A DNA stretch of 64,000 nucleotides from Corynebacterium breve (GTDB lineage: Bacteria; Actinomycetota; Actinomycetes; Mycobacteriales; Mycobacteriaceae), in the NCBI RefSeq assembly GCF_030252165.1, contig NZ_CP126969.1, forward strand, positions 62,001 through 126,000. Direction: 5' to 3'. The translations under genes and the position numbers were made by a program. Below the pieces are notes generated by a model. That model was not told the DNA's origin. It ran no database searches and saw only the letters and a list, made by a program, of their open reading frames with translations. Positions 2,855 to 62,214 of the stretch are shown here, piece by piece. Position 1 is the first letter of the stretch; the number at the start of each line of letters is the position of its first letter.

Positions 2855-3346
2855 ATGGACACCAATCAGGGCTACCCCGATGGGTATGCGGTCACGGTTT
2901 CGTGGATCGATGGCGCATGGAACGTCGCGAAGTTTAGGGACGATTTCACTCACTTCTCCACGGCCGTCGACGCAGTGCGGAATCTCCGCAGCGAAGGGGC
3001 TGCTTTCGCATTGCTGTGCGTGGAGGACGAGTACCTGGTCATCGTGCGTCCCGGCCCGAACCGGGTGCACGCGTTGATCTCCGACGCGACGATGGCAGTT
3101 GACGACGACTACGCCGCCGAGGTCCTCGACGAGCTCGGCATCGAGATCCCAGACCTTGACCCTGATGAGCTGGACGAGATCGACGGCTGGGCTGACGGTG
3201 ACTTTGGCATCCTCGACAACGTGGGCCTCTCCGAAGAGCTGTTAAGCGTGCTTGTCGACGACCAAGACGCCTACCCGTCCGATATCATCCAGCGGATCGC
3301 CGACGAGCTGGATTTCTCCGACGAGCTGGAGCGCGTTCTGCGGTGA
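2855..3346 (+). CDS. TadA-associated acidic protein
   Basis: This 163-aa, strongly acidic cytoplasmic protein has no signal peptide or membrane segment. It matches the actinobacterial family named tRNA adenosine deaminase-associated protein, which regularly precedes tadA. Its stop codon overlaps the tadA GTG start (GTGA), so the two are translationally coupled. The N-terminal 80 residues look globular (alternating beta and alpha); the rest is rich in Asp/Glu and Leu. Its biochemical role is unknown; an accessory or regulatory role for TadA is inferred from the conserved pairing only. Confidence 0.75.
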   Translation: MDTNQGYPDGYAVTVSWIDGAWNVAKFRDDFTHFSTAVDAVRNLRSEGAAFALLCVEDEYLVIVRPGPNRVHALISDATMAVDDDYAAEVLDELGIEIPDLDPDELDEIDGWADGDFGILDNVGLSEELLSVLVDDQDAYPSDIIQRIADELDFSDELERVLR

Positions 3347-3810
3347 CTCTTTCGGCACCCGAGCGTCAAGCTCAGGAGAGGATGCGACGCGCGATCGAGG
3401 TCGCACGCACCACACCGGTGGGTGACGTGCCCGTCGGGGCCGTGATCTTCGACTCGGAAGGGAAAGAGATTGCGTGTGGGGTGAATCGTCGTGAAGCGTT
3501 GAGCGACCCCACAGCCCACGCCGAGGTTGAAGCGATCCGCGCGGCAACGGCGCAGCTGGGGACGTGGCGCCTGGAGGGGTGCGAGCTGGTGGTCACCCTC
3601 GAGCCGTGCACGATGTGCGCAGGCGCGATCCTAGGCGCACGGGTGGGAAGCCTTGTGTACGGGGCGTTCGAGCCACGGACGGGCGCTGTGGGCTCGCTTT
3701 TCGACGCCCTGCGCGACGTGGACCAGTTACACACCGTTGAGGTGCGGGCGGGGGTATTGGAAAGCGAGTGTGCGCAATTACTCACCGGGTTCTTTGAACA
3801 GCTGCGCTAA
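3343..3810 (+). CDS. tadA: tRNA(Arg)-specific adenosine-34 deaminase
   Basis: Deaminates A34 to inosine in tRNA-Arg(ACG), allowing it to read CGU, CGC and CGA. This 155-aa zinc deaminase has the catalytic HAEVEAI motif (His zinc ligand and proton-shuttling Glu) and the second zinc motif PCTMCAGAI. Length and spacing are normal for the family. The GTG start overlaps the upstream stop by four bases. It should not be confused with the Tad-pilus ATPase, also called TadA in other nomenclature, encoded at 60302-61444. Its tRNA substrate gene is in the same window at 1516. Confidence 0.95.
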   Translation: MTLSAPERQAQERMRRAIEVARTTPVGDVPVGAVIFDSEGKEIACGVNRREALSDPTAHAEVEAIRAATAQLGTWRLEGCELVVTLEPCTMCAGAILGARVGSLVYGAFEPRTGAVGSLFDALRDVDQLHTVEVRAGVLESECAQLLTGFFEQLR

Positions 3811-3853
3811 TCTCGAGTGAGATACATTCATTTAGCCGATAAGGAGCAAGAAC

Positions 3854-4054
3854 ATGGCAGGCAACCCGATGGATAAGGCGAAGGATTTCGCGGATCAGGC
3901 TGATGTGATCGTCGATAAGGCGCAGGAGATCATTGACACCGCGCGTGAGAAGGCGGGCAACAACGAGCAGGCGAAGAAGATCATCGACGCGGCGGACCAG
4001 ATTCAGGACAAGGCTGAAGAGATCGTCGATCGCGTACAGGGAACCAACAAGTAA
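3854..4054 (+). CDS. Small Lys/Asp-rich helical protein (MT0933-antitoxin-like)
   Basis: This 66-aa protein is preceded by an AAGGAGC ribosome binding site. It is almost entirely charged amphipathic helix with recurrent DKA(K/Q)(D/E) units (MDKAKDF, VDKAQEI, QDKAEEI), giving a repeated pattern of about 11 residues. This composition resembles actinobacterial MT0933-like antitoxins and CsbD/LEA-type stress proteins. No toxin gene is adjacent, so an antitoxin role is not supported by context. The next gene is CsbD-like with similar composition, which suggests a shared stress role. Confidence 0.6.
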   Translation: MAGNPMDKAKDFADQADVIVDKAQEIIDTAREKAGNNEQAKKIIDAADQIQDKAEEIVDRVQGTNK

Positions 4055-4136
4055 TCGTTATCATGCGTTGACCTTTATGTAGTTACGGTGGGTGGTGTAC
4101 ACCGAAACCGAACAACTTACTTAAAGGAGCAACACC

Positions 4137-4346: not shown

Positions 4347-4384
4347 TTTGGTTCCAAGGCCGTCTAACCGTTAATCTACTTGGC

Positions 4385-4472: not shown

Positions 4473-4480
4473 AAGCACTG

Positions 4481-4607: not shown

Positions 4608-7034
4608 GTGGCCAAACTCCTGTTCCGGTTAGGGCGCTGGTCCTACAACTTCAAGTGGCGAGTCATCATCACCTGGCTCATTCTGCTGGTGGGTGTCGCA
4701 GCGGCAGCGTTGTCGCTGCAGAAGCCGTTCACCTCGCAGTTCGCCATCTCCGGAACTCCCGCTATTAACGCCACGGCGATGTTGGTGGAAAACTTCCCCG
4801 ATCAGCCCAACCCGGTCAAAGCCGCCGGCGTGAATTTGGTGTTTAAGGCGCCCGACGGCGAGACCCTGGAAGACCCCGATAACTACGAGGCGGTCAACGA
4901 CGTCATCAAGCATCTAGAGGACAACCTCGCGATGACGGGCACCGAGCGCTTTGGCAACCCCGTTGATGTTTCCCCGAAGCAGACCGAAACCATCATTCAG
5001 ATGGAAACAGAGATGGGTCTGCCACAGGAAACCGCAGAAGCTGACGCCGCGAACGTCGCCTTGCTTACCGACGACAAGCGCATCGGTTACACCACCTTCA
5101 ACTTTGATTCGCCTTCGTCGTTTGAGGTGAAGCAGTCTGACCGTGACATCGTGACAGAAGCGATGGAGATCGGACGCGAGGCGGGCCTGCAGGTGGAGGC
5201 CGGTGGCGCTGGTTTCGGTGATCCGATCCAGGTAAAAACAACCAGTGAGATCATCGGTCTCGTGGTTGCATTCTTCGTGTTGATCTTCACATTTGGCTCG
5301 CTGGTGGCCGCCGGTATGCCGGTGATCTCTGCAGTGATCGGCGTGGGTATTGGCGCGCTGCTGATCGTGTTGGCCACCCACTGGGTGGAACTTACCGATG
5401 TCACCCCGGTTCTTGCGGTGATGATCGGACTTGCGGTGGGCATCGACTACGCCTTGTTCATTCTCTCTCGCTATAGGCAGGAGAGGCAGCGAATGTCCGG
5501 GCCGGAAGCCGCCGGCATGGCGGTGGGTACTGCGGGCTCCTCGGTTGTCTTCGCCGGATTTACGGTGTTTACGGCACTGGCAGCGTTGACGATCGCGCGC
5601 ATCGAGTTCCTTACCTGGATGGGACTTGCGGCTGCGGTCACAGTCTTGATCGCCGTACTGGTCGCGTTGACTCTGATCCCGGCGATGCTGGGCGTTGTCG
5701 GCGACCGTGCTTTTGCGGGCAAGGTCCCGGGAGTGGCAGGCAATCCCGCCCGTGGCAAACGCCTGGGTAAGGATTTGACCAAGAACTCCATGGGGCGCAG
5801 GTGGGTTAACTTCGTTCGTCGCGTCCCGGCCCTCGTGATGGCTGTCGTTGTCTTGTTCTTGGGCATCTTGTCCGCCCCGGTGCTCGGCATGGAGCTGGCA
5901 CTGCCTTCAGACTCCACCAGCAACAAGGACACTACGCAGCGTAAATCCGCCGACCTCATCGCGGAGGGATTCGGAGAGGGCGTGAACTCGCCATTCCTCG
6001 TCGTGGTCGATGCGCACAGCGTCAACCCAGAGGCCACTGTCCTGCAGCCGTACATGGCGGCGCAGGAGGGTACAGATCCGGTGACTGCGGCGTCGCAAAG
6101 CTCTTTCCTGTATGCAGTTAACGAGCTCAACCAGGTCAGCGGTGTTAAGCACGCGCAACTGGTCAGCGCGAACGACGACAACACCGCCGCACAGATTTTG
6201 ATTACCCCGACCACGGGACCCGATGACCAGTACACCGTCGCGGTCGCTGAAGCGTTGCGCGCTCAGGGTGAGCAGATCCAAGATTCCACGGGTTCAGAGA
6301 TCGGGCTGACCGGCCTGACTGCTGTGCAGATGGATATCACCGAGGCTCTTGAAGGTGCTATGCCGCTCTACCTCGCAGTAGTCGTCGGACTGGCGATCGT
6401 GCTGTTGCTGTTGGTGTTCCGTTCCATCATGGTTCCGGTTGTGGCCGGTCTTGGTTTCTTGCTGTCCGTGGGTGCATCCTTCGGCGTAACTGTGTTGGTC
6501 TGGCAAGAAGGACTCTTCGGCTTGGTCAACACCCCGGGGCCGTTGCTATCCTTCCTGCCGATCTTCTTGATCGGCGTGACCTTCGGCCTGGCGATGGACT
6601 ATCAAGTCTTCCTTGTCACGCGTATGAAGGAGCAGTACACCGCGTTGGGCGGGGAAGAATACTCCGGCGGTGTGCACAAGGCGGTGGAGCGCTCCACGGT
6701 CGAGGGCTTTGTCCAAGGTGCCCGCGTGGTCACCGCCGCCGCGGTGATCATGATCGTGGTCTTCGTGGCGTTTATCGACCAGCCTCTGCCATTCATCCAG
6801 ATCTTCGGCTTCGCGCTGGGTATCAGCGTGTTCTTCGACGCGTTCTTCATCCGCATGGCGCTGGTGCCTGCGACCATGTTCATCATGGGGCGTGCCACCT
6901 GGTGGATGCCAAAGTGGCTGGACAAGATCCTGCCTGACCTAGACGTTGAAGGCTCCGCGTTGGAAAAGGAGTACGACGCAAAACTGGAGGCACAGGCAGC
7001 CCACACTGAGTCGATGCAGAAGGTCTCATCGTAG
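4608..7034 (+). CDS. MMPL/RND-superfamily membrane exporter
   Basis: A large inner-membrane transporter built as two homologous halves, each one TM, an extracytoplasmic domain and five TMs. The first TM is at about residues 22-42 (ITWLILLVGVAAAA). The clusters with GLAVGIDYALF and GVTFGLAMDYQVFLV carry the membrane Asp-Tyr pairs that relay protons in MMPL proteins. I chose the GTG at 4608 (MAKLLFRLGRW) rather than the upstream ATG at 4539, because the extra residues have no membrane or conserved character. It looks closer to the YdfJ-type drug exporters than to mycolate-exporting CmpL proteins, which are usually longer and sit beside lipid genes. Substrate unknown. Confidence 0.82.
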   Translation: MAKLLFRLGRWSYNFKWRVIITWLILLVGVAAAALSLQKPFTSQFAISGTPAINATAMLVENFPDQPNPVKAAGVNLVFKAPDGETLEDPDNYEAVNDVIKHLEDNLAMTGTERFGNPVDVSPKQTETIIQMETEMGLPQETAEADAANVALLTDDKRIGYTTFNFDSPSSFEVKQSDRDIVTEAMEIGREAGLQVEAGGAGFGDPIQVKTTSEIIGLVVAFFVLIFTFGSLVAAGMPVISAVIGVGIGALLIVLATHWVELTDVTPVLAVMIGLAVGIDYALFILSRYRQERQRMSGPEAAGMAVGTAGSSVVFAGFTVFTALAALTIARIEFLTWMGLAAAVTVLIAVLVALTLIPAMLGVVGDRAFAGKVPGVAGNPARGKRLGKDLTKNSMGRRWVNFVRRVPALVMAVVVLFLGILSAPVLGMELALPSDSTSNKDTTQRKSADLIAEGFGEGVNSPFLVVVDAHSVNPEATVLQPYMAAQEGTDPVTAASQSSFLYAVNELNQVSGVKHAQLVSANDDNTAAQILITPTTGPDDQYTVAVAEALRAQGEQIQDSTGSEIGLTGLTAVQMDITEALEGAMPLYLAVVVGLAIVLLLLVFRSIMVPVVAGLGFLLSVGASFGVTVLVWQEGLFGLVNTPGPLLSFLPIFLIGVTFGLAMDYQVFLVTRMKEQYTALGGEEYSGGVHKAVERSTVEGFVQGARVVTAAAVIMIVVFVAFIDQPLPFIQIFGFALGISVFFDAFFIRMALVPATMFIMGRATWWMPKWLDKILPDLDVEGSALEKEYDAKLEAQAAHTESMQKVSS

Positions 7035-8970: not shown

Positions 8971-9714
8971 CTAGTGGACGATCACGGCGTCGTCGAAAAG
9001 CGGCCCGTTCAGCGGCTGGCTAGCTAAAACTGGCTGGTCAGCATATCCGCCCTGCAGCAGTCCGACAGGGTGTAACGTGCCGTTATCCAGGGCGAATACC
9101 GGGCCGCCGGAGTCACCGTGACCCGCGACGGCCGAGAAATTCACGCGGCCGAACTCGTCCGTCGAGGTGTAAGGGCCGCAGCTGAGCCCCGATTTTTGCC
9201 CGAGCACGCATAGGGTGGGCTGAGCGCGTGCGACATAATCGCTGCTCGCAGCGTCTCCGAAAGCAAGATTTGTGATGGGAATCCGTGATTGCACACGCTC
9301 CCGATCGGTCACGCGAATCAGCGAGCGATCAAAGCCACTCCCGTAGAAGCGCTGGTCAACCTGGCCAAACTCGTGCCAGTAACCGTCGCGATCCACGATG
9401 CCGAAGCGGGTTCCCTCCTCGCCGCAGTGCGCGGCAGTAGAGACGAAGCGCTCGCCATGTTTATCGACGATCCACCCAGCCGAGCAGTAGACACCCTTTT
9501 CGGAAACAATCTGCGCGCCGGGCAGCACCTTGTCTGGGTGTGTGAGTACGTGGCGGGCGGTGTCGTCGTGAAGCACTCCCTGTGCGTTGAATTTGCTCAG
9601 GTCAATGTCGTGCGCTGGTGAGTGTCCGACCGCGCTGGGCAAGGCGGCGGAGCCGATGAGAAGCGTCGAGACTAGCGCAGATATGGCGGATGCGAGTCGT
9701 ACCGTTGTGCGCAT
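8971..9714 (-). CDS. Secreted trypsin-like serine protease (S1 family)
   Basis: This 247-aa exported protein starts at ATG 9714 (MRTTVRLASA), chosen because GGGAAGAGAG precedes it; a longer in-frame start exists at 9732. A Sec signal peptide covers about residues 1-30 (hydrophobic SAISALVSTLLIG). The catalytic triad is recognisable: His in STAAHC, Asp in GFDRSLIRV and Ser in GHGDSGGPV. Cys pairs flank the active site as expected for an exported enzyme. No C-terminal anchor is present, so it is probably released. It separates the queuosine genes yhhQ and gluQ without an obvious functional link. Confidence 0.85.
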   Translation of the reverse strand: MRTTVRLASAISALVSTLLIGSAALPSAVGHSPAHDIDLSKFNAQGVLHDDTARHVLTHPDKVLPGAQIVSEKGVYCSAGWIVDKHGERFVSTAAHCGEEGTRFGIVDRDGYWHEFGQVDQRFYGSGFDRSLIRVTDRERVQSRIPITNLAFGDAASSDYVARAQPTLCVLGQKSGLSCGPYTSTDEFGRVNFSAVAGHGDSGGPVFALDNGTLHPVGLLQGGYADQPVLASQPLNGPLFDDAVIVH

Positions 9715-12315: not shown

Positions 12316-12334
12316 AAACTTCTGCTTGACGACG

Positions 12335-12364
12335 AACCCCTGCCGGAGCGCGCCGGCAGGGGTT
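12335..12364 (+). terminator. Terminator of the thioester-domain gene
   Basis: AACCCCTGCCGG pairs perfectly with CCGGCAGGGGTT across a 6-nt loop, followed by CTTTC. Confidence 0.85.
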
Positions 12365-12829: not shown

Positions 12830-15304
12830 ATGGGCTGGATCAGCGAACCCTCGTTGGCAAAGGAGTTTGACCTCGATCCCGAGGTGCTCAACGCCGTGAT
12901 TGATCGTGTAGCGCAGAAGCTGCATGCAAAGCTCGCGACAGGCCAGCTCTTTTTCACGCGCTTGCCCAAGGAATACCTAGCTGCCCAGATACTGGTCCGC
13001 GCCATGTCCACCCTTGATCCGCAAAACGAGCCTCGCTGCTTTAATTTCGATACCCGACGGGACGCCGAGTCGCTGCGAATCGAATTTGCAGGGCCACTCG
13101 TTATCGATGTCACCGGTCCTCTCAATCGGTGCTCCAGCGACAGTCGCGAGGAAAACGCCAACCGGCTGCGTTCCCGGAAGTCCAAGACTGTCTTGGCGCT
13201 GCAAACCAACGATCTTTCTATCGCCGAGTCATATGTCGTGCGCGCGGATAACGTGTTCACCGATTCGGATTTGCTGTTGAGCCTGACGGATTTGGAAGAA
13301 CTCTCGGGTGAAGGGGTAGTCGTCGAAAAGCTTCTCGACGAAACCGGTGGCGTCCCAGGGTTCGTCGTCGCTGCGTTGACCGATCACGCGCGCGGCAAAG
13401 CTCGGGCTTTTCCGGCGATGGCGCGGTCGTGGGCTCGCGAAATCGTGCCATTGGTCACCAACAATTTAGCTTTAGACGCGATGGTATGGCTGCCTCCAAT
13501 TGCGGAGTATTCGCTGCGCACGATCGTCAATCAGGTGGCGCCCGATGGGCTGGGCGAGATGCAGTTGGTCTCCGCGCTCGCTTCTCCGGCAGTCGTGGCT
13601 GCTGGGACTTTTCCGCCGGCATACCCGTGGCAGCTGAAGGCGGCGCTGCAGGAGCTTTCGCTTTACGACGATGCCTTCTGCCCACTCCACGACTATGTTT
13701 CGCTGGCTAATAGCGATCTGGTGCCATTCCCGGACCGGATCTGTGCATTAGCTGCGGAGCAGTGGTGGGAGGAACTCGATGCTCTGATCCGGACGCGGCC
13801 GTGCTGGTTGATATTAGTGCCTGTGTCTGTCCGCAGGCGATTGGTGGCGCTGTTCCCAGCGGCGATTCCGACTTCATTGACAGGTCTGGACACTGCGAAG
13901 AGGTTCTTTGCGGGTGAACTCACCCAAGAGCACGTATCGGGCAAGAATCCGATGTGGGCGGAGCTAATTGACCTAGTGCCGGGCACGGAACGTGTTCGTC
14001 GCCAAGCTTTTGCCTCGCCGGGTTTTGAACCGGTTAGCGACGTCGCACGAGAACTAAACGAGTTCATCATGCGCTTTACGGTGACGGGGCCACGGGTGGA
14101 GACACCGTTGCATGATCCGGACTCCGCAGTCGAGTTCCTAGATCTGTGCCGGACGTTGATCACAGAACACATCCGCAAGGTTACGGAAGCGCGCGAGCCA
14201 GAGATTCTCGATGACACCGCGATGTTGATTGTCTTGCTAAACACCCAAGCAGACTTAGCGATCGATCTCGGCCTGATTTCAATTGCCGATGACTGCTCGT
14301 TCCAGGCACAGCTGCTGTTGGGGCGCCTCGGAGGTGCAAGCGACGCCTACGCGCCGCTATACGCCAACGTTTTGGCGGTGCGGGCGTTTGTGTCAGGCAT
14401 GGTGGGTAACAACCAGGCGGCGGCTGGTTTTATTGAACGCTACCGTGACTTGAGCGGGCCGACCATTCCCGAGTTGGATTCGATGGTGGATCTAGCTGAG
14501 CTGTTGCGACTTGATGAAGAGTGCATTCGGAAGACGATTCCATTGCATGTGGAAATCGAATCGATTCATGCTGCTACCGAGGCTTTCTGTCAGGGTGTGC
14601 GAGTGGCTAGTGGGTACGGTCAAGATGCGGCGATTAGTTACTGGCGCTCCATTCACGATCGTGTGGAGTGGTCTGCAGCGGCCACGTGGCGCATGTGGCC
14701 GGTGCGGGCAGCGCTGGTGTCGCTGTATGGGGTGAATGGACAGCCCAAAGAGGCCAGAGCTTGGCTCGATGCTGGGTGGCTTCCGCAACCTCTGCAGCGC
14801 CTAGCTGAGATCATCATTGACCTGCAGGTACAGCCGGAACAGTCTCTTGAGGAATTGGAGAAAATTCTCGGTGAGTTTAACCTGCCGACTCGCTGGCGCA
14901 TGATTGCGCTGGGTTACAAGATCGAATGCCTCATTCTCATGGGAACCGGTGAAGGCGAGATCGCTGTCGCTGTACGCGGCGAGAACTGGGCAGAACACAT
15001 CGGGCTGTCGTCGATTCTGCCCGAAAACGCACGCCAAAGAATTGTCGAGCACTACGGTTTTGATGTGTCCGAATTTCCTGGGCTGCAACCGCACACTGGC
15101 CAATCGGTCGAGGAACTTTCGGAGCGTCAGCTCCAGATCCTCGAGTTGCTGGCCACAGGCAAACTGCAACGCGAAGCTGCCGACGAACTTGGAATTAGCA
15201 CGGAGACTGTGAAAGCGACGTCGAAGAAGATTTACCGAAAGCTTCACGTTGGAAACTTGCAGGAGGCAGTACGCGTTGCCCGTGCTCAGGGCTGGTTGCA
15301 GTAG
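12830..15304 (+). CDS. Large LuxR-type regulator with a degenerate STAND/MalT-like ATPase region
   Basis: About 824 residues. The C-terminus is a LuxR/GerE helix-turn-helix (LSERQLQILELLATGK through STETVKATSKKIYRKL). The N-terminal third follows the layout of MalT-like STAND regulators: a hydrophobic beta strand PLVIDVTG at the Walker B position and TGGVPGFVVAAL matching the TGGWPAGL motif. However, no GxxxxGK[ST] P-loop is present (the equivalent region reads FFTRLPKEYLAAQIL). The middle is helical repeat-like, as in MalT sensor domains. The ATG at 12830 follows GGGAGGGG; a GTG at 12806 is an alternative. Ligand and targets are unknown. Confidence 0.75.
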   Translation: MGWISEPSLAKEFDLDPEVLNAVIDRVAQKLHAKLATGQLFFTRLPKEYLAAQILVRAMSTLDPQNEPRCFNFDTRRDAESLRIEFAGPLVIDVTGPLNRCSSDSREENANRLRSRKSKTVLALQTNDLSIAESYVVRADNVFTDSDLLLSLTDLEELSGEGVVVEKLLDETGGVPGFVVAALTDHARGKARAFPAMARSWAREIVPLVTNNLALDAMVWLPPIAEYSLRTIVNQVAPDGLGEMQLVSALASPAVVAAGTFPPAYPWQLKAALQELSLYDDAFCPLHDYVSLANSDLVPFPDRICALAAEQWWEELDALIRTRPCWLILVPVSVRRRLVALFPAAIPTSLTGLDTAKRFFAGELTQEHVSGKNPMWAELIDLVPGTERVRRQAFASPGFEPVSDVARELNEFIMRFTVTGPRVETPLHDPDSAVEFLDLCRTLITEHIRKVTEAREPEILDDTAMLIVLLNTQADLAIDLGLISIADDCSFQAQLLLGRLGGASDAYAPLYANVLAVRAFVSGMVGNNQAAAGFIERYRDLSGPTIPELDSMVDLAELLRLDEECIRKTIPLHVEIESIHAATEAFCQGVRVASGYGQDAAISYWRSIHDRVEWSAAATWRMWPVRAALVSLYGVNGQPKEARAWLDAGWLPQPLQRLAEIIIDLQVQPEQSLEELEKILGEFNLPTRWRMIALGYKIECLILMGTGEGEIAVAVRGENWAEHIGLSSILPENARQRIVEHYGFDVSEFPGLQPHTGQSVEELSERQLQILELLATGKLQREAADELGISTETVKATSKKIYRKLHVGNLQEAVRVARAQGWLQ
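13320..13341. repeat. Head-to-head pair of the TCGTCGANAAGC motif
   Basis: TCGTCGAAAAGC (13320-13331) and its inverted partner GCTTCTCGACGA (13330-13341) overlap on the central GC, giving a 22-bp near-perfect palindrome inside the LuxR-type gene. It is part of the dispersed family described at 3250-61533. Confidence 0.7.
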
Positions 15305-16653: not shown

Positions 16654-17223
16654 TTGACCGGAGAGGAAATCGCAGTCTGGCTCTCCAACATCTATGGCGG
16701 AGCCATCGAACTCAAAGACATCGAAGGCGTAAGAATTGCTTTCGTGACGCTTGGCGACGACACCCGCACCGCAACCACCTGTGGGTTTTCCCAGGTGGAC
16801 ACCGGTCTGGCATTGCAAGACGACAAGTCAACGGATGTGCGGTGCGAGATCGTGATCCAGTCGGATTCCGCCAGTGACGAAGAGTTAGCTGCCGCCCTCA
16901 TCGGCCTGTGGGGTGTTCTGGCGCGCGCGCCTGGAACTATCCCCGCACAACCAGGAACTTCCGTACCCAACGCCGTGGTTCAGTCTCCGCTGGCCGCGGT
17001 TCCAGAAGTGACCGTGAAGCATGCCGTGCTGCGCGAGCCACAAATCTTCGATCAAGGCACTCCCTCATTGTCCGAAGAGGGACGTATTACGTTGCTGCTT
17101 GAAGCAGTGCTGTTGACTGATGAAGAGTTCGGCATCGTACAAACTCAAGGCATGGATCGCGTGTCTACGCGCCTGCGCCGACGGGCCACCAACCTCGGGG
17201 ACTTCCGCCGAGACGCGGACTAG
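16654..17223 (+). CDS. Conserved hypothetical protein, possibly suppressor-of-fused-like
   Basis: A 189-aa soluble protein with a TTG start directly after the aspT stop, so it is likely translated by coupling; GAGGG lies just upstream. It has no signal peptide or TM. The pattern of a central EIVIQSDS strand, a helix (EELAAALIGLWGVLA), a second strand pair and a C-terminal segment LLLEAVLLTDEEFGIVQTQGMDRV resembles the SUFU-like fold, in which a late segment reads LxPLxxxEyxxxxxxG. That match is tentative. The place between aspT and dnaX is conserved, but its job is unknown. Confidence 0.55.
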   Translation: MTGEEIAVWLSNIYGGAIELKDIEGVRIAFVTLGDDTRTATTCGFSQVDTGLALQDDKSTDVRCEIVIQSDSASDEELAAALIGLWGVLARAPGTIPAQPGTSVPNAVVQSPLAAVPEVTVKHAVLREPQIFDQGTPSLSEEGRITLLLEAVLLTDEEFGIVQTQGMDRVSTRLRRRATNLGDFRRDAD

Positions 17224-19888: not shown

Positions 19889-19939
19889 AAGCTTCACGAC
19901 GAACCGGCGCACCACACAGTGGGTTGCGCCGGTTTTGCG

Positions 19940-31821: not shown

Positions 31822-32895
<1,074 letters not shown>

Positions 32896-37212: not shown

Positions 37213-37229
37213 GCATACGCTTAACGACG

Positions 37230-37272
37230 AATCCCCCGCTCAACCGAGTTGTACTCGGTGAGACGGGGGATT
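37230..37272. terminator. Bidirectional terminator between katA and the mrp operon
   Basis: AATCCCCCG/CGGGGGATT is continued by an inner CTCAACCGAG/CTCGGTGAG stem. It lies between two convergent operons. Confidence 0.88.
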
Positions 37273-46112: not shown

Positions 46113-46565
46113 ATGAGCGAATTGAAAGCAAAGATCCGTGAAGACATGAAGACCGCCATGAAAAACAAGGACAAGGAGCGCCTCGGTGCGATCCGTATGC
46201 TCCTTGCGGCGATCCAGACCGAGGAGACCGCTGGCGTCAAGCATGAAGTTACCGACGAAGATGTGTTGAAAGTCGTCGCGCGCGAGATCAAGAAGCGACG
46301 CGAGTCGGCGGAGATTTATGCAGCGAACGGTCGCCAGGAACTAGCTGATGCGGAACTCGCCGAGGTTGCGGTTTTCGAGGATTACCAGCCGAAGCAGCTT
46401 GACGACGACCAGGTTGCCGCGCTTGTCGACGAAGCCGTCGCGGAGACAGGTGCCGAGTCTATGAAGGACATGGGCCAAGTTATGAAGGTGGCAACAGAAA
46501 AAGCCGCTGGCCAGGTTGATGGCAAGCGACTTTCTGCTGCGGTGAAGGCGCGTCTCGGCGCCTAA
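46113..46565 (+). CDS. GatB/YqeY-domain protein
   Basis: A 150-aa protein from ATG 46113 (MSELKAKIREDMKTAM). It consists of the YqeY domain: an N-terminal helical block with RLGAIRMLLAAIQ and a C-terminal tail domain as in GatB (KQLDDDQVAALVDEAV). Such proteins may bind tRNA, but no enzymatic role is established. It is convergent with the PBP gene, with two bases between the stop codons. Confidence 0.9.
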   Translation: MSELKAKIREDMKTAMKNKDKERLGAIRMLLAAIQTEETAGVKHEVTDEDVLKVVAREIKKRRESAEIYAANGRQELADAELAEVAVFEDYQPKQLDDDQVAALVDEAVAETGAESMKDMGQVMKVATEKAAGQVDGKRLSAAVKARLGA

Positions 46566-50303: not shown

Positions 50304-51116
50304 ATGGAGCACCCTGCTTACAGTCAGTTGCGGCCGGTTACAGAGTCCGCCGCAGTCGTCTTGGCCCCTAACCCAAGCTATGCAGCTTTGGAAGGGACAA
50401 ACTCGTGGGTCATTCGTGACCCGGAGGATGAATTCAGCATTGTTGTAGACCCCGGCCCGGCGGATGAGGGCCACCTGAACGTATTGCAGGCCAAGGCCGA
50501 AAAAGTCGGTCTCATTCTGCTGACTCACCGCCACCATGACCATGCGGATGGTGCGGAGCGGTTCCGCCAGCTCACGGGCGCGCCCGTTCGAGCATTCGAT
50601 GCGCGCTACTGCTTTGGTGGCGAGCCTCTGACCGACGGTGAAATCATCGACCTCGACGGCGTGACCCCGCAGCTCAAGGTCGTGCATACCCCAGGACATA
50701 CCGCCGATTCGGTGTGTTTTGGCGTATACACCGACGATGTTGCAAAAAACAACCTTGAGGGAATCATCACCGGCGACACCATCGTTGGCCGCCACACCAC
50801 CATGATCTCTGAGACTGATGGCGATTTGGGTCAGTACATCGAGACTCTCGAACTCCTCGAAGAACAGGGCAAAGACGTCATGCTGCTGCCCGGTCATGGC
50901 CCAGAAAACCCTGACCTCTCAGTGTTGGCACGCAAGTACATCGACCGTCGCAACTTCCGCCTCGAGCAGATCCGGAAGGTTTGGGCCGAGAAGGGCACCG
51001 ACATTGACCTGAAGACGCTTGTCGACGAAATGTACGACGACGTCGACCCCGTACTTCGAGGCGCAGCTGAGCAATCCACCCGAGTGGCGCTGCGCTACCT
51101 CCAAGCTCAACAGTAG
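50304..51116 (+). CDS. Metallo-beta-lactamase-fold hydrolase (LACTB2-like)
   Basis: A 270-aa protein from ATG 50304 (MEHPAYSQLRPV), preceded by GGGTGGAG. The zinc-binding HxHxDH motif is THRHHDHADG near residue 81, with further ligands in HTPGHTADS, TGDTIVG and PGHGPEN. The C-terminal winged-helix-like segment (LRGAAEQSTRVALRYL) is typical of the LACTB2/Rv3677c group, some members of which act on RNA. It is the last gene before a bidirectional terminator. Confidence 0.9.
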   Translation: MEHPAYSQLRPVTESAAVVLAPNPSYAALEGTNSWVIRDPEDEFSIVVDPGPADEGHLNVLQAKAEKVGLILLTHRHHDHADGAERFRQLTGAPVRAFDARYCFGGEPLTDGEIIDLDGVTPQLKVVHTPGHTADSVCFGVYTDDVAKNNLEGIITGDTIVGRHTTMISETDGDLGQYIETLELLEEQGKDVMLLPGHGPENPDLSVLARKYIDRRNFRLEQIRKVWAEKGTDIDLKTLVDEMYDDVDPVLRGAAEQSTRVALRYLQAQQ

Positions 51117-51133: not shown

Positions 51134-51145
51134 TCGTCGAAAAGC
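51134..51145 (+). repeat. Intergenic copy of the TCGTCGANAAGC motif
   Basis: TCGTCGAAAAGC lies between the MBL gene stop and the bidirectional terminator, outside any coding frame. It shows that the dispersed motif is not tied to protein sequence. Confidence 0.7.
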
Positions 51146-53058: not shown

Positions 53059-53646
53059 ATGAAGAAGTCGGTCCTCATCAGTGTTGTCGTCATCGTCGTG
53101 GCAACGGCACTTCTCGTGGCCGCGGCAATCAGCATGCTTTCCGACGACTCCTCTGGCAATGCCGAGGGTCCTGCCGCGGGGCAGGAATTGCCGGCGCAGG
53201 GGTCGTCGACAAGCAAAATCGCGGAGCGCCCAGATTGCCCAGCAGAAGGCGCTGGCGGAGTCGCGCTGGAGTGTCTCGGCGGCGCACGTGGCGCAGCACA
53301 GCAGGATCCCGAGCATATTTCGGTGGTCAACGTCTGGGCGTGGTGGTGCGCGCCGTGTCGGGAAGAGCTGCCGTTCTTCGACGAATTTGCGCAAAGCCAT
53401 CCGGAATACACGGTGGTGGGTGTCCATGCTGACACCAACGCAGGAAACGGAGCGGCGATGCTCAATGAGCTGGGAATTGAAATGGCAAGCTACCAGGATT
53501 TTGATAACAGCTTTGCGGGAACCTTGGGTCTACCCAACGTCATCCCAGTTACGGTAGTCTTTCGCGGTAACGATCAAGTTGGATTCTTCCCCACGCCATT
53601 TAAGTCGGTGGAGGAGCTCGAGGAAGCGGTTGCAGAGGTGGTCTAG
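53059..53646 (+). CDS. Membrane-anchored thioredoxin-like protein (ResA/TlpA type)
   Basis: A 195-aa protein from ATG 53059 (MKKSVLISVVVIVVATALLV) with one N-terminal TM anchor. The redox-active CxxC is WWCAPCREELPFF near residue 96, and the cis-Pro region is NVIPVTVVF. Two further Cys (PDCPAEG, LECLGG) lie in front and may form a structural bridge. It would act outside the membrane in disulfide or cytochrome c maturation. The gene overlaps the Nudix start by one base. Confidence 0.88.
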   Translation: MKKSVLISVVVIVVATALLVAAAISMLSDDSSGNAEGPAAGQELPAQGSSTSKIAERPDCPAEGAGGVALECLGGARGAAQQDPEHISVVNVWAWWCAPCREELPFFDEFAQSHPEYTVVGVHADTNAGNGAAMLNELGIEMASYQDFDNSFAGTLGLPNVIPVTVVFRGNDQVGFFPTPFKSVEELEEAVAEVV

Positions 53647-54471: not shown

Positions 54472-55664
54472 GTGACCGCCACACTCATTGTCGATGCTGT
54501 AATCGTCGCAATAATTCTGCTGGCGCTTTTTAGCGGTTGGCGGCAAGGCGCATTCTCATCGATCCTGTCGGCTGTCGGCGTTCTCTCAGGTCTGGTGATC
54601 GGCCTCGCGATAGCCCCATTCGTCATCAAGCTTGGCGACACCGCCCTGATGCGGCTCATCCTGCTCGTCGCGGTGACCGTGCTCTTTGTCGGCTTGGGCA
54701 ATCTCGTCGGCGCCACTATCGGCGGGAGCGTGCGCGATCGGATGCGTACCCTGTCCTCGCAAAAGGTGGATTCCGTGATCGGCGCTGTGATGCAGGCGCT
54801 GGCAGCGATCGTCGTGGTGTGGCTGATCTCGATCCCCCTCGCAGCGAATATTCCCGGCGATATCGGTAAAGGACTGCGAACCTCCAAGATCCTCGGCGGG
54901 ATCAACAAGGTCGCGCCTGACTGGAGCACGCAGGTGCCCACGCAGCTGTCGGCGCTTCTCGACGAATCGGGCCTGCCGCCATTGGTCTCACCGTTTGAAC
55001 CGGCGGGCAACCAGGAAGTAGACGCCCCCGATGCGAATGCAATTGATATGGCCGTCATTGAGGAAGCTCGTGAGTCCATCATCCACGTGCGCGGAGATGC
55101 CGACGAGTGCGAGCGTCGCCTGATGGGATCCGGATTCGTGGCCGCCGAGGATTATGTGATCACCAATGCTCACGTGGTGGCCGGAACCGAGTCGGTGGCA
55201 CTTGACACTGTGCTAGGAAACATGGATGCCACGGTGGTTTATTACAACCCCGACGTGGACATCGCCGTCCTGCACGCGCCCGAGCTCGGCCTCAAACCGT
55301 TGGGCTGGTCGGAGGAACTAGCAGAAACAGGCTCCGATGCCATCGTTATGGGCTTCCCAGCCTCGGGGCCTTTGAGGCAGCGCCAGCCCGGATTCGCGAA
55401 CGCATCACGATTGCCGGCCCGGACATCTACGCCACTGGTCGCGTCGAGCGCGAGGCGTATACCGTTCGCGGCACCATTCGCCAGGGCAACTCCGGTGGGC
55501 CTATGACCGATGTGGATGGTCGCGTGATCGGTGTAGTCTTCGGCGCTTCGGTGGATGCTACTGACACGGGCTACGCGCTGACCTCGCGCGAAGTGCTAGA
55601 CAACATCGGGGACTTCACCACGTTGACCAAACCGGTTGACACGCAAAAGTGTGCCGCGCGCTAG
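54472..55664 (+). pseudogene. marP: MarP-type membrane serine protease with a one-base deletion
   Basis: The first frame starts at GTG 54472 and has four TMs (IIL LALFSGW, LSGLVIGLAIAPF, LILLVAVTVLFVG, ALAAIVVVWLIS). It then enters the trypsin-like periplasmic domain with His in ITNAHVVAG and Asp in NPDVDIAVL. At 55366-55373 (GGGGCCTTTG) the coding frame shifts by minus one. Downstream the frame from 55371 encodes FEAAPARIRERITIAG and the catalytic serine motif GNSGGPM, ending at TAG 55662. Without the shift, the protein matches Rv3671c/MarP, an acid-resistance protease. One base is missing in a G/C/T run, which could be an assembly error. Confidence 0.82.
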
Positions 55665-57324: not shown

Positions 57325-57996
57325 ATGAATTCGTCGGACCCGCTATCCCCCTTCCAGCAACTAGGGGACGTAGCAGCGCTTATCGACGACACCACCGCCG
57401 CCATTGCAGTTGCCCACCGCCGCCCAGCTGCTTTACGACGAGCCGACATTATCGTCGGTGAGAGCGTTCTCCGGGGAGCGAAGTTGTCGGGAATGCTTGA
57501 CGGCGCAGCAGTGGAAGACATGGTGAGCCCATATGCTGTGCTGTCTCCAGAAACAGCGGCCATGACCGCGCAGACATTCCTTCGTGCGCCTTCCCAAGTG
57601 TTCGCCCGCCTTGACGTGGCAGCTGGAGGTGAGGGCAAGCCGTCAGATCCGCAGCGAATGGAGGCGTTGGCCCGATTGATTACCGCGCCGGGTGTGTCTG
57701 GGTTGCTTTTGGCGCAAGTGGTGCACTTTGAAGTCGCGGGCAGGGAACTTTTCGGCTCACGCAGCGGGGTCGTAGGCCGTGTGTCGTCGCGGTGTGCTGC
57801 GCTTGCTACAGGTGTGGACCCTTTGGGAATCTGTGTGCCGGAAACCTATTACAACCGGCATCGTGAGGACTATGCTGTGGCCCTCACAGGCTGGGTTTCG
57901 GGGGATAGGCACGCGGTGACTCAGGCGTTGGAGTTTGGCCTGCGGGCGTGGATCGCCGGGGCTGAAGAGGCTGACGGGATCGCGCGGGCAGCGTGA
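57325..57996 (+). CDS. Rv3662c-like conserved protein
   Basis: A 223-aa soluble protein. The ATG at 57325 (MNSSDPLSPFQQLG) has no Shine-Dalgarno but a -10-like TATTCT seven bases before it, so I infer a leaderless start; a GTG at 57307 is the alternative. A helical N-terminus (RADIIVGESVLRGAKLSG) faintly recalls the N-terminal domain of Fic-type proteins, but no Fic motif (HPFxxGNG) is present. GSRSGVVGRVSSRCAA and CVPETYYNRHR are further conserved-looking segments. Its position beside the HAD phosphatase equals Rv3662c. Function unknown. Confidence 0.7.
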   Translation: MNSSDPLSPFQQLGDVAALIDDTTAAIAVAHRRPAALRRADIIVGESVLRGAKLSGMLDGAAVEDMVSPYAVLSPETAAMTAQTFLRAPSQVFARLDVAAGGEGKPSDPQRMEALARLITAPGVSGLLLAQVVHFEVAGRELFGSRSGVVGRVSSRCAALATGVDPLGICVPETYYNRHREDYAVALTGWVSGDRHAVTQALEFGLRAWIAGAEEADGIARAA

Positions 57997-59030: not shown

Positions 59031-59036
59031 CGGCAG

Positions 59037-59258: not shown

Positions 59259-60299
59259 ATGACCACCGAACAAGCCCCAATCCTGGTAGCAATCGACAAC
59301 CCCGCACTCCATCCCGAAGCCGTCCACATCGCGGCCGCCACTGGCCGACCCGTCATTGACGCTCGCGACGTTCTCACTGTTACCCGTCACTCCTCCCGGG
59401 CTCACGCCCTGCTTATCGACGACACTTATGCCCGCGAACTCCACCGGCCACCAGGGTCCTTGCCCGTGTACTTTCTTAGCGACGATCCCGCCGGCGTTGA
59501 TTTTGAAGCGGCGATGAATTCCCACGCCCAAGAGGTGTTCCTCCTACCCGCTCAGGCAAAGGAACTTTTGTCCGCGTTAGGGAAGCAAACTCAGTTTGAG
59601 AATGCTTCCCGTGACTCGGGTCGGGTCATCGCCGTCGTGGGTGCGGCGGGAGGCGCGGGGACATCCACGGTGGCGGCGGCCTTGGCACGTGTAGCGAGCA
59701 AAACGGGGAGCCCCACTCTTATCGACACCCATCGGTACTCCGGTGGACTTGATCTGTTGTTTGGCATCGAGGAAGTCATCGGGGCGAGGTGGGGAGACAT
59801 TTCATTGGGAGACGGTGATGTACAGCGTTCTGACTTGCGTCTTGCTTTCCCCACTACCGACGACGGAGTGGCGGTCTTGTCGTCGGCACGCACCGGAATC
59901 AATGATCCATTCCGCCTCGATGCACACGATCTGGACCGGGTGATCAGAATCCTCGCGACCGAGGACCTCACGATTGTCGATGCGTCTCCCGGTAGTATTC
60001 CGGCCCGATGTGACCTTGCGGTTGTGGTCACTCCAGCAGAGGTGAGAGCTGCGGCGGCAGCAAGTTTGATCGTGAGTGAATGCAACGCAACAAACACACC
60101 GGTAGTGCTAGTCGCACGCCATCGCGGGTGGTCGGGGTTGAACAACAACGAGCTGGAGCGGGTCGCAGGCGCTCCGGTTATCGCGGAAGTAATCCAAGTG
60201 CCACGACTTGCCCGCACGATCGAAGTGTCCGGATTGCCACAGCGACTGCCGGGGACTTTAGACCGGGCCGCTCACGCGATCCTTCAGGAAGCGAGCTAA
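59259..60299 (+). CDS. ssd: Septum-site-determining-like/CpaE-like ATPase
   Basis: A 346-aa protein of the MinD/CpaE superfamily. The N-terminal 115 residues look like a pseudo-receiver domain. The deviant Walker A reads VVGAAGGAGTSTVAAAL, lacking the signature lysines as in mycobacterial Ssd. The Asp in LIDTHRYSGGLDLLFG is the switch-like region. It precedes the Tad ATPase gene by two bases, so it works in Tad pilus localisation, septum regulation or both. Mtb Rv3660c (Ssd) is the orthologue by order. Confidence 0.87.
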   Translation: MTTEQAPILVAIDNPALHPEAVHIAAATGRPVIDARDVLTVTRHSSRAHALLIDDTYARELHRPPGSLPVYFLSDDPAGVDFEAAMNSHAQEVFLLPAQAKELLSALGKQTQFENASRDSGRVIAVVGAAGGAGTSTVAAALARVASKTGSPTLIDTHRYSGGLDLLFGIEEVIGARWGDISLGDGDVQRSDLRLAFPTTDDGVAVLSSARTGINDPFRLDAHDLDRVIRILATEDLTIVDASPGSIPARCDLAVVVTPAEVRAAAAASLIVSECNATNTPVVLVARHRGWSGLNNNELERVAGAPVIAEVIQVPRLARTIEVSGLPQRLPGTLDRAAHAILQEAS

Positions 60300-60301
60300 T
60301 C

Positions 60302-61444
60302 ATGCCCGTTGAACCCGCCGTGCTTGAGAAAATTCAGCGCCGTGTTGCGGAAAACCCCGAACTAGAAAACCCGGCGCGCCTCGCCAGCGTGATCCGCGAG
60401 GAAGCCGTTGTGATCAGTGACCTCGATGTGCTGGAAGTGATGCGCACCCTGCGACACAACTCGACCGGCGCTGGCCCTCTCGATGTGCTTTTCGGACGTG
60501 AAGCCGTCACCGATATCTGTGTCAACGGGCCAGAGGAAGTATTCGTCGACCAAGGCAAGGGGCTCGAGCACACCGATGTGCGGTTTCGTTCAGTGGAAGA
60601 CATCCGCAAACTGGCATCCCGGCTGGCATCGCAGTGCGGGCGCAGACTCGACGATGCACAGCCGTTCTTTGACGGACACATCACACGCCCCGACGGCACC
60701 ACGATCCGCATCCATGCCGTGCTTTCCCCGCCAGCGACGGGCTCGGTCTGCTTGTCCCTGCGTGTCCTGCGCAGCCGAGTCACATCGTTGGATCAGCTAG
60801 TTGCCGGCGGCGCTCTACCCGAGGAGCAAGCCAACCTTCTACGCCAAATGATTGCTTGCCGACGATCCTTCCTCGTCGTCGGCGGAACCGGTTCCGGAAA
60901 AACCACCATGCTCGGTGCACTGCTGGGTGAGGTCAAGGAGACGGAGCGAATTATCGCATTGGAGGACACTCACGAACTATCGCCCCCTCATCCCCACGTA
61001 CTCAACCTGATGACCAGGACGGCAAATACTGAAGGCATCGGTGCAATTAGCATGAGCGATTTGTTGAAGCAGGCTCTAAGAATGCGACCGGATCGGATCG
61101 TCGTGGGAGAAATCCGCGGAGCCGAGGTGGTTGATCTTCTTGCGGCGCTCAACACCGGTCACGAAGGTGGCGCGGGAACAGTGCACGCAAATTCTATCGC
61201 CGAGGTCCCCGCCCGATTGGAAGCCCTGGCTGCTCTTGGGGGGCTTGATAGTCGGGCGCTCCATACTCAGCTGGCCGCCGCTGTAGACGTTGTGATTGTG
61301 ATGAGGCGAGACCCCGAAGGGAGGCGGATCGTTCACCAGATCGGTCTGCTCGATGGGAACCCCGTGGAAGCGATAGTCGGCTGGGACTCCACTACCGGTC
61401 CCACCGAACATTACCGGCGACTGAGCGAGGTGATGAGCGGATGA
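60302..61444 (+). CDS. Tad/Flp pilus secretion ATPase (CpaF/TadA type)
   Basis: A 380-aa hexameric ATPase that powers pilus assembly. ATG 60302 (MPVEPAVLEKI) matches family length; a longer frame back to 60080 lies inside ssd. Walker A is GGTGSGKTTML near residue 199, the Asp box is ALEDTHELS, and the His box is GHEGGAGTVHANS. ICVNGPEEVFVDQG is the N-terminal signature of CpaF. The stop overlaps the tadB start by four bases. Confidence 0.92.
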   Translation: MPVEPAVLEKIQRRVAENPELENPARLASVIREEAVVISDLDVLEVMRTLRHNSTGAGPLDVLFGREAVTDICVNGPEEVFVDQGKGLEHTDVRFRSVEDIRKLASRLASQCGRRLDDAQPFFDGHITRPDGTTIRIHAVLSPPATGSVCLSLRVLRSRVTSLDQLVAGGALPEEQANLLRQMIACRRSFLVVGGTGSGKTTMLGALLGEVKETERIIALEDTHELSPPHPHVLNLMTRTANTEGIGAISMSDLLKQALRMRPDRIVVGEIRGAEVVDLLAALNTGHEGGAGTVHANSIAEVPARLEALAALGGLDSRALHTQLAAAVDVVIVMRRDPEGRRIVHQIGLLDGNPVEAIVGWDSTTGPTEHYRRLSEVMSG

Positions 61445-62214
61445 CGACCTTCATCGCTGCAGCGTTGGGCATTGCAGTGCCACCGGTTCCTCCGGGAAAG
61501 AGGATTCTGCCCCGGGTGGGCTCGTCGACAAGCAAAGAACGACTGGTGGTGTTTCTACCTGTACTCCTAGTCTTCTTGATCGTGTCCGACCAGGCCACTA
61601 TTGTTCTCGCCTGCGTTATCGTTGGGGGTACCGCCCTGTATATCGTGGATAGCTCGATAGCTCAGCGCGAAGAGGAGCGAGAACGAGAGGTAATCGCTCA
61701 CTTCCTGGGACACATGCTCACTGATCTGCGCGCGGGTGCCACACCGGCCCACGCGGTGGCCCACGCGATCGAACACATCCCCACCGATGCGCCGAACGAA
61801 CTGCGGCAGGTGCTTAACAACGCACACAGTCAACTCGCACGTGGAGGCGGGGCTGCTGAAGCGCTCCAGGAAGCAGCGAGCACGCACCTGCGAGAACTAG
61901 GCGCCGTCTGGGCCCTGTCTGACACACGCGGCATCCCCATGGCCGATCTGTTGGAAAAATCACGCGATCGCATCGATGCGACCACTCGGCGCGCTTCTCA
62001 AGTCAAAGCCGCTCTGACCGGACCGAAGACGACGGCGACTGTTCTTGCAGCGCTTCCCTTTGCAGGGATCGGAATGGGGGCCATGATGGGAGCCTCTCCA
62101 TTGACGTTTCTCACAACGACCGGGCTGGGCAACGCATTGTTTCTTGCCGGCACAGCATTGACCAGCGGCGGGATTCTGGTTTCCCACGCGATCATCCAGA
62201 AGGCGGCGACATGA
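61441..62214 (+). CDS. Tad inner-membrane platform protein (TadB-like)
   Basis: A 257-aa protein with TMs near the N-terminus (VVFLPVLLVFLIV, ATIVLACVIVG) and at the C-terminus. The type II secretion F domain contains LRAGATPAHAVAHAI and ALSDTRGIPMADLLE. The first 30 residues (PPVPPGKRILPRVGSSTSKE) include a TCGTCGANAAGC copy in the DNA. It overlaps both neighbours by four bases, so one operon. Confidence 0.87.
   Translation: MTTFIAAALGIAVPPVPPGKRILPRVGSSTSKERLVVFLPVLLVFLIVSDQATIVLACVIVGGTALYIVDSSIAQREEEREREVIAHFLGHMLTDLRAGATPAHAVAHAIEHIPTDAPNELRQVLNNAHSQLARGGGAAEALQEAASTHLRELGAVWALSDTRGIPMADLLEKSRDRIDATTRRASQVKAALTGPKTTATVLAALPFAGIGMGAMMGASPLTFLTTTGLGNALFLAGTALTSGGILVSHAIIQKAAT

Follow-up and report, generated by a model that had tools for sequence, protein, structure and literature searches.

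The word TCGTCGNNAAGC, with ten fixed letters, occurs 1,515 times in the 2.57-Mb genome of this Corynebacterium (748 copies on one strand and 767 on the other), and it is likely that it serves as a tag by which DNA of the bacterium's own kind is recognised and taken up. The motif marks the genus Corynebacterium, and codon constraint falls far short of explaining how often its copies persist at orthologous places. To the more specific reading, that TCGTCGNNAAGC acts as this bacterium's DNA uptake sequence and that a minor subunit of the Tad (Flp) pilus would bind DNA bearing it for transfer to ComEA and ComEC and recombination with the chromosome, we assign a probability of about 0.7.

Letters and distribution of the word

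The density amounts to about one copy per 1.7 kb, and the reversed control of TCGTCGNNAAGC gives 15 copies in the genome. In the window, i.e., the whole 64-kb stretch of DNA analysed here, 40 copies are found where 0.26 are expected. An earlier note on this stretch had reported a 12-mer, TCGTCGANAAGC, in 21 exact copies (11 forward, 10 reverse), all of which are present. The 12-mer is truly overrepresented, with 689 copies on the two strands of the whole genome (335 + 354) versus five (3 + 2) for the pattern read backward, and 100 dinucleotide-preserving shuffles of the window gave a mean of 0.09 and a maximum of 1. It is, however, a subset of TCGTCGNNAAGC, which has 40 rather than 21 copies in the window: among the 268 copies of TCGTCGNNAAGC in a 464-kb sample, where the runner-up 6-2-4 pattern has 53, the base before N is A in 116, T in 72, G in 46, and C in 34, so that A is only preferred and TCGTCGNNAAGC is the core. 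The N, which the note had taken to be fully degenerate, proved to be skewed (C 140, T 107, A 76, and G 38 of 361 core copies). A preference for G upstream of the motif extends to ten bases. TCGTCGANAAGC is the commonest form of TCGTCGNNAAGC, and by its letters the word is non-palindromic.

Motif copies in the window (coordinates, strand, copy; listed, in the earlier note; new, added here):
3250..3261 (-) TCGTCGACAAGC, listed
3486..3497 (+) TCGTCGTGAAGC, new
5063..5074 (-) TCGTCGGTAAGC, new
8990..9001 (+) TCGTCGAAAAGC, listed
9563..9574 (+) TCGTCGTGAAGC, new
12324..12335 (-) TCGTCGTCAAGC, new
13320..13331 (+) TCGTCGAAAAGC, listed; head-to-head overlap with 13330..13341
13330..13341 (-) TCGTCGAGAAGC, listed
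13660..13671 (-) TCGTCGTAAAGC, new
13996..14007 (+) TCGTCGCCAAGC, new
16749..16760 (-) TCGTCGCCAAGC, new
17984..17995 (-) TCGTCGATAAGC, listed
18604..18615 (+) TCGTCGATAAGC, listed
19891..19902 (-) TCGTCGTGAAGC, new
20331..20342 (+) TCGTCGTAAAGC, new
24333..24344 (-) TCGTCGACAAGC, listed
24525..24536 (+) TCGTCGATAAGC, listed
25928..25939 (+) TCGTCGACAAGC, listed
29985..29996 (+) TCGTCGAGAAGC, listed
32502..32513 (-) TCGTCGACAAGC, listed
33623..33634 (-) TCGTCGGAAAGC, new
35148..35159 (+) TCGTCGATAAGC, listed
37219..37230 (-) TCGTCGTTAAGC, new
38338..38349 (+) TCGTCGCCAAGC, new
40662..40673 (-) TCGTCGGCAAGC, new
42405..42416 (+) TCGTCGAGAAGC, listed
42803..42814 (+) TCGTCGGCAAGC, new
46397..46408 (-) TCGTCGTCAAGC, new
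46421..46432 (-) TCGTCGACAAGC, listed
51017..51028 (-) TCGTCGACAAGC, listed
51134..51145 (+) TCGTCGAAAAGC, listed; outside called genes
53136..53147 (-) TCGTCGGAAAGC, new
53203..53214 (+) TCGTCGACAAGC, listed
54954..54965 (-) TCGTCGAGAAGC, listed
57378..57389 (-) TCGTCGATAAGC, listed
57430..57441 (-) TCGTCGTAAAGC, new
59411..59422 (-) TCGTCGATAAGC, listed; within ssd/cpaE
60854..60865 (-) TCGTCGGCAAGC, new; within tadA
61522..61533 (+) TCGTCGACAAGC, listed; within tadB
63339..63350 (-) TCGTCGTAAAGC, new; within the second TadE-like gene

As described in the earlier note, two copies overlap head-to-head at 13320-13341 and copy 51134 is intergenic; copies 53203 and 46421 also fall outside genes according to a simple gene caller, whose gene ends are rough. 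The copies of the 464-kb sample are divided 133/135 between the strands with a spacing CV of 0.90, and 43 of the 268 lie outside called genes, against 18% of non-coding DNA. All three frames are used, as had been claimed, and this on both strands; the main readings of the 12-mer form in genes are x-L-x-D-(D/E) and x-V-(D/E)-K-x. Close pairs are no commoner than expected in this sample (14 spacings below 100 bases versus 15 expected), and of the ten pairs no more than 60 bases apart, seven have opposite orientations. Uptake sequences tend to be scarce in rRNA genes, constrained genes, and newly acquired DNA. Here, two of the three longest gaps found in 598 kb are rRNA operons and the other holds rpsG-fusA; this placement is suggestive, but none of the gaps is longer than random placing allows (8.6 kb versus a random median maximum of 9.8 kb).

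Two gene frames prevail (129 and 38 of 268), as would suit a motif that arises merely from the use of codons or dipeptides, but this reading is refuted by shuffles and we give it practically no chance. Called genes hold 102 of the 116 12-mer copies in the sample, compared with a mean of 4.3 in 50 within-gene synonymous shuffles and means of 6.2 and 6.7 (maximum 11) in context-keeping shuffles (20 each), and the earlier note was thus right that codon bias cannot explain the 12-mer. The copies outside called genes argue against it as well, as does the lack of the motif in orthologous genes of motif-less genomes described below.

Spellings, conservation, and a base switch

Three spellings of the word, beginning with TCGTCG, GCGTCG (GCGTCGNNAAGC), and GCATCG (GCATCGNNAAGC), occur across the genus, as counted in 242 genomes. 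The spellings differ at a base or two around the invariant core TCGNNAAGC. When a genome counts as a carrier from 110 copies upward, all three spellings summed, 188 of the 242 same-genus genomes carry the motif and the remaining 54 fall below, so the overrepresentation pointed out in the earlier note extends to other Corynebacterium genomes. Copies of a single spelling range from none to nearly 1,600 per species genome, and no comparable excess was detected in 140 genomes of other genera. Several low-count genomes have another spelling or none, in a comparison that ignored noise rows from one G099 stretch with a run of N. In a tree of 35 genomes whose root was placed by us, the GCATCG genomes are joined by two that lack the word, G042 and G127. 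That low-count genomes might hold degenerate copies of one word was considered and rejected, as in 21 such genomes the forms with one mismatch are found at no more than 2.2 times the control count, compared with 12 times in the own genome. The TadA locus of Candidatus Corynebacterium gallistercoris is nearest to those of motif-less genomes, and its 11.6 kb contain none of the three spellings.

In orthologues of five same-genus genomes, the own sites are kept exactly in 12/25, 11/20, 7/22, 6/18, and 4/21 cases, compared with 4-6% of other words; these counts cover orthologue pairs of at least 40% identity and sites with a gap-free alignment. Among sites with unchanged amino acids, 27 of 33 are kept versus 10-17% of other words; the earlier note had proposed to look for such conservation beyond codon constraint. 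Across 31 tad loci, compared under the same restrictions, TCGTCG sites are kept in 200 of 501 comparisons within the TCGTCG class; against genomes without the word, the figure is 0 of 342. A few old GCATCG sites survive in motif-less genomes, in 3 of 70 comparisons.

The sister genomes G001 (GCATCG) and G219 (GCGTCG) were aligned over 46.8 kb at 81% identity. G stands for A at 10/10 aligned sites, nine of which are perfect sites of the other spelling; sites without alignment (3/13 one way, 7/22 the other way) were left out. Among control GCATCG words whose other five letters are kept, G is found in 15/48 (Fisher 6e-5 versus 10/10), with 38 of 86 words left out since another letter had changed.

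The Tad pilus and rival explanations

A Tad locus lies at the end of the window:
59259..60299 (+) ssd / CpaE homologue (TIGR03815), first tad-locus gene; proposed part of the import pilus
60242..61444 (+) tadA, pilus ATPase (T2SSE PF00437, TIGR03819); exact start uncertain
61441..62214 (+) tadB (T2SSF PF00482)
62211..62801 (+) tadC (T2SSF PF00482)
62824..63027 (+) putative Flp-type pilin (DUF4244, PF14029), its role an interpretation
63032..63325 (+) TadE minor pilin, weak NF041390 match below cut-off; candidate receptor by analogy
63322..63651 (+) second TadE-like protein (TIGR03816, Rv3654c family); candidate receptor by analogy
63648..64000 (-) DEAD/DEAH helicase with MrfA Zn-binding domain, adjoins the tad locus and continues beyond the window end

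ComEA and ComEC are encoded in the genome as well. ComEC is present in 241 of the 242 genus genomes. ComEA was matched in all of the 23 genomes examined for it, in 21 of them with a score over the curated cut-off, and motif-less genomes are among these 23; tadA, tadB, tadC, and the pilin gene also occur in nine motif-less genomes of a separate clade. The machinery thus does not predict the motif, and its presence or absence was ruled out as the cause of motif counts, ComEC being nearly everywhere. Motif carriers make up 176/196 genomes with a strong TadA match, leaving 20 without the word, 7/40 with a weak match, and 5/6 with no hit; the last six, five of them carriers, had been left out of an earlier Fisher table of TadA against the motif. 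In the tree of 35 genomes, the weak matches come mostly from one separate motif-less clade; the link of motif and TadA match largely mirrors this clade and is therefore not counted as evidence. The two TadE-like proteins were not recognised by tblastn in six and seven of the nine genomes of the motif-less clade, nor in the motif carriers G087 and G202. The minor pilins were also considered as dialect readers and set aside, as no clear dialect-linked residue was seen in an alignment inspected by eye.

An uptake-like sequence had been one of several readings offered in the earlier note, and it fits most of what was measured: the copy number, even strands, dispersal, dialects, and the same base switch at orthologous sites. 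As is usual for uptake sequences, there is about one copy per 1-2 kb in both orientations, in and outside genes, with no replication-strand bias, with dialects, and with more copies retained than coding constraint would require. The genome also encodes a type IV-like pilus, ComEA, and ComEC, as do genomes without the word, and the inverted close pairs that are common, though not essential, in uptake sequences are not in excess. On this reading, the bacteria would be capable of DNA uptake, the word would raise it, and the receptor would sit in the pilus. Fragments with a good copy may be taken up more often and replace imperfect copies, a molecular drive by which copies would accumulate, while a changed receptor preference would drag all sites to a new spelling, which would produce the dialects and hinder exchange from one species to another.

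Chi-like and FtsK-like words likewise occur in excess and are associated with core genomes, and an oriented recombination or segregation signal of this kind was weighed and appears very improbable. Neither the skew of Chi sites to one replication strand nor an overall FtsK-type orientation along replichores was seen (123 leading and 145 lagging among the 268 copies in 21 stretches; 748/767 by strand), so the argument of the earlier note from balanced orientation holds. We know of no such word that reaches ten fixed bases and about a hundredfold excess. It is also quite improbable that the motif is a methyltransferase or restriction site, enriched by repair or protection linked to a modified base. 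Type I sites are bipartite, and the two-base-spacer form of the motif is loosely similar; restriction sites are usually avoided, not enriched, and neither the non-palindromic letters nor the G preference to ten bases upstream favours such a site. The precedent would be HIP1 of cyanobacteria, a highly iterated word linked to methyltransferases in an excerpt of the source (PMC4390886).

The even dispersal, both orientations, and orthologous conservation would also follow if the motif were the binding site of an abundant nucleoid or chromosome-organising protein, selected at about 1,500 places and with a specificity that drifted between clades, which we consider unlikely. To our knowledge, no abundant chromosomal protein binds this word, and selection would be needed on each of these single sites. 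Moreover, most sites are unshared within a class, as the tad region shows, and some lineages are without the word, such as the two that group with GCATCG genomes. The identical base switch at all shared sites is easier under the biased replacement that the uptake reading entails.

Likeness to known systems

Corynebacterium is an actinobacterium with a mycolic-acid envelope. On balance, we find it probable that it has an independently evolved third self-recognition language, the first outside Proteobacteria, which would be read by a Tad pilus. Its dialects, at least three in number, would rewrite between hundreds and more than a thousand chromosomal sites together and so separate the species from each other. 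In the source excerpts, uptake words are described so far for two bacterial families (Haemophilus, Neisseria), and Corynebacterium would be the third lineage. If true, such languages would arise repeatedly in unrelated lineages and could make use of a different pilus; DNA that lacks the right word would perhaps be ignored, a possible reason why natural transformation of Corynebacterium could have been missed. Among the literature matches listed, there is no report of natural transformation in Corynebacterium and none of this word, and a motif-string search that did not include GCGTCGNNAAGC also gave nothing; for three Corynebacterium genomes, the excerpt of a 2017 survey of spaced motifs (PMC5217627) mentions CRISPR patterns alone. 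The 242 genomes with varied counts, together with sister species of different spelling, would offer a direct test of self-DNA selection versus mere molecular drive.

The USS of Pasteurellaceae (H. influenzae AAGTGCGGT) is similar in copy number, with 1,465 copies in H. influenzae and 1,892 uptake-sequence copies in N. meningitidis as excerpted from PMC7811141, in its even spread, and in flanks that show weaker preferences outside the core; excerpts (PMC7811141, PMC3630211) describe two related versions that belong to separate clades. The letters are unrelated, and the flanks are G-rich upstream here but A+T-rich in the USS. Haemophilus and Neisseria have terminator pairs, whereas the Corynebacterium motif is without close-pair excess, and the pilus here is Tad rather than type IVa, with uptake as a proposal. 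The DUS of Neisseriaceae, as excerpted, has several dialects with an invariant CTG, a distribution that follows phylogeny, and some genomes with none (PMC3630211); the likeness lies in spellings that differ by a base or two around an invariant core (TCGNNAAGC here), in a spread that follows phylogeny, and in genomes of the group without the word. The letters are different, and the counterpart of its receptor ComP is here a candidate by analogy.

Micrococcus luteus, likewise an actinobacterium, has ComEA, ComEC, and Tad-type pilus genes (PMC6668835, PMC6667448, PMC6370729), and according to excerpts its Tad locus is required for transformation (PMC6668835, PMC6370729). Transformation is proven there and a proposal here, and these excerpts name no uptake word for M. 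luteus. With HIP1 (GCGATCGC) of cyanobacteria, the motif shares the character of a short word iterated in high number through the chromosome; HIP1 is palindromic and linked to methyltransferases in the excerpted source (PMC4390886), whereas TCGTCGNNAAGC is non-palindromic and has clade dialects.

Exact form of the word and its layout along the chromosome

The earlier note had reported 21 copies in the window of a 12-mer with a fixed A before its N, and these are all real and far above chance; genome-wide, we counted 689 copies of this form against 5 of the reversed pattern. The A as a fixed base was not borne out, as it proved optional when every pattern of the same shape was counted in a 464-kb sample (the window plus 20 stretches of 20 kb). 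The core TCGTCGNNAAGC was found 268 times in this sample, and the next-best pattern of that shape 53 times. The whole genome of C. breve carries 748 forward and 767 reverse copies of the core (15 for the control, the pattern read backwards), and the window alone carries 40, compared with a mean of 0.26 and a maximum of 3 in 100 shuffles. Exact copies even outnumber near-misses, with 361 exact and 244 one-mismatch copies in 598 kb (control, 2 and 98). Beyond the core, G is favoured at -10 (67%) and -4 (63%) of the 361 copies, and C is disfavoured at +12 (29/361). The same upstream positions are prominent in the 101 copies lying outside the two main codon frames, indicating that part of the flank preference is not codon structure.

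Codon bias had been judged unable to explain the word, and three synonymous shuffles, two of which preserve neighbouring context, agree with this, yielding means of 4.3, 6.2, and 6.7 against 102 intragenic copies of the 12-mer. All six gene frames are used, two of them predominantly (129 and 38 of 268), and 43 copies (16%) of the 464-kb sample lie outside called genes, compared with 18% non-coding DNA. The balanced orientations noticed in the window hold for the sample as well (133/135), spacing is close to random (CV 0.90), and densities in the sampled stretches all fall between 3 and 9 copies per 10 kb. Leading and lagging strands carry 123 and 145 copies, respectively, with the replichores taken as the first nine versus the last twelve stretches, a split set from GC skews. 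The head-to-head overlap described at window positions 13320-13341 was likewise found, its outer seven bases forming a perfect inverted repeat; close pairs of copies in the sample are no commoner than chance. Of the three longest stretches free of the motif in 598 kb, two are rRNA operons and one contains genes that we take, from their sequence, to be rpsG and fusA, though random placing allows gaps of equal length.

Spellings across the genus

Three spellings were counted in 242 Corynebacterium genomes, TCGTCGNNAAGC, GCGTCGNNAAGC, and GCATCGNNAAGC, named TCGTCG, GCGTCG, and GCATCG after their starts. The 12-mer itself ranges from 0 to 707 copies per genome. With the three spellings summed, the count in other Corynebacterium genomes proposed earlier gave at least 110 copies in 188 of the 242 and fewer in 54, here called motif-less. 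The carriers comprise 95 genomes with mainly GCGTCG, 62 with a GCGTCG and TCGTCG mixture, 18 with GCATCG, and 13 with mainly TCGTCG, the class limits (110 copies; twofold) being our own choice. C. breve belongs to the last class (1,515 TCGTCG, 102 GCGTCG, and 22 GCATCG). The base preceding the two G-spellings is nearly always G (97-100% in four genomes). In 140 genomes from 30 other genera of the family, sampled evenly from a larger set, the 12-mer peaks at 64 copies, in a genome of 6.5 Mb whose control count is 20, a roughly threefold excess.

Genomes without the 12-mer were also searched by word counting without a preset pattern, which recovered GGCATCGNNAAGC in G096, G001, and G106 and GGCGTCGNNAAGC in G219. 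It found nothing comparable in G007, G142, and G230 and no related word in G131, G232, G042, and G028.

Weaker words and repeats were observed besides. Motif-less genomes show a weak excess of GGTGGCGTCG with an A-rich tail, which has GGCGTCG in common with one dialect and may be a further relative. GTGGCGTCG, which includes GGCGTCG, the start of one dialect, and also precedes A-rich bases, is in weak excess too, occurring 20, 18, and 22 times in motif-less G007, G142, and G230 (stretches L045-L054, L071-L074, and L115-L117) versus 3, 6, and 5 times reversed, and 0-5 times in 20 kb each of six more motif-less genomes; it may be a more distant uptake word. G131 (L100-L103, L088) holds about 100 copies in 100 kb of a repeat combining CCGCG..CGCGG and CTCCG....CGCGG at a fixed distance, which looks like a CRISPR array or a palindromic repeat family. 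In G219 (L096-L099), GTCGG....GTCGG occurs 81 times in 80 kb and is probably a repeat array; GTCGGCTCAG and GGCTCAGTCG are frequent there.

Conservation and a concerted change of spelling

Conservation beyond codon constraint, a check suggested by the earlier note, was evident in orthologues from the tad region, where C. breve copies are exact in five other genomes at 12/25, 11/20, 7/22, 6/18, and 4/21 sites versus 4-6% for other words. At sites with identical amino acids, 9/10, 6/6, 4/6, 4/5, and 4/6 copies are kept in the same genomes versus 10-17%. Across 31 tad loci, in mutually non-independent comparisons, TCGTCG sites persist in 200 of the 501 within-class comparisons (three genomes of this class being mixed by genus-wide counts), and 11 more have GCGTCG. 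They are kept in 0/180 comparisons with the separate motif-less clade, one branch of a 35-genome tree, and in 0/162 with other motif-less genomes. Against GCATCG genomes, GCATCG stands at the same place in 16/314 and TCGTCG in none, and GCATCG sites persist in 3/70 comparisons with other motif-less genomes.

G001 and G219 form a sister pair in the tree of 35 genomes, with a support of 1.0, and their overall identity is 81%. Ten of the 13 GCATCG sites in 60 kb of G001 align; G219 has G for A in 10/10, and nine are perfect GCGTCG sites. GCATCG words elsewhere served as a control, of which 86 aligned and 48 kept the other letters, with G in 15 of these 48 (Fisher, 6e-5). In the reverse direction, 15 aligned GCGTCG sites of G219 correspond to 9 GCATCG, 2 GCGTCG, and 4 neither in G001. 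The sites have switched jointly, but the remaining DNA has not, and we take that as the mark of a single recogniser reading all of them.

Candidate import machinery and proposed uptake

Candidate DNA-import genes are present in the window:

last 4.7 kb of the window: tad locus (ssd/CpaE, TadA, TadB, TadC, pilin, two TadE-like proteins, then a helicase)

ComEC lies at 1.72 Mb of the C. breve genome and ComEA about 7 kb from it; they are apart near 1.722 Mb (L080:9714-13114 and beyond) and adjacent in G001. The gene after ComEC is presumably holA-like, judging by its sequence, and genes beside ComEC appear to us thiamine-related. The TadA match of G014 (L126), a genome with 295 GCGTCG-type copies, is split into two pieces in different frames, so its tadA may be broken. 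The tad, ComEA, and ComEC genes also occur in motif-less genomes, so that they allow an uptake role but do not prove it; 20 genomes have a close TadA without the word.

We consider it likely, with a probability of about 0.7, that the word is a DNA uptake sequence. The word, its spread, conservation, shared switch, and the genes are what was observed, and from there we infer uptake, preference, receptor, and drive. The word on external DNA would be bound by the pilus or a partner, and the bound DNA imported via ComEA and ComEC. Recombination would then put good copies in the place of imperfect chromosomal ones more often than the opposite exchange occurs, and copies would accumulate without serving the genes that contain them. 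An altered receptor would draw the sites towards a different spelling, an effect suggested by the G001/G219 pair.

Transformation of Micrococcus luteus requires a Tad locus, according to excerpts of two reports (PMC6668835, PMC6370729). For Haemophilus, the part of the literature consulted describes this drive for its uptake words, and such words as underrepresented in newly acquired DNA as well as in constrained and rRNA genes (PMC7811141).
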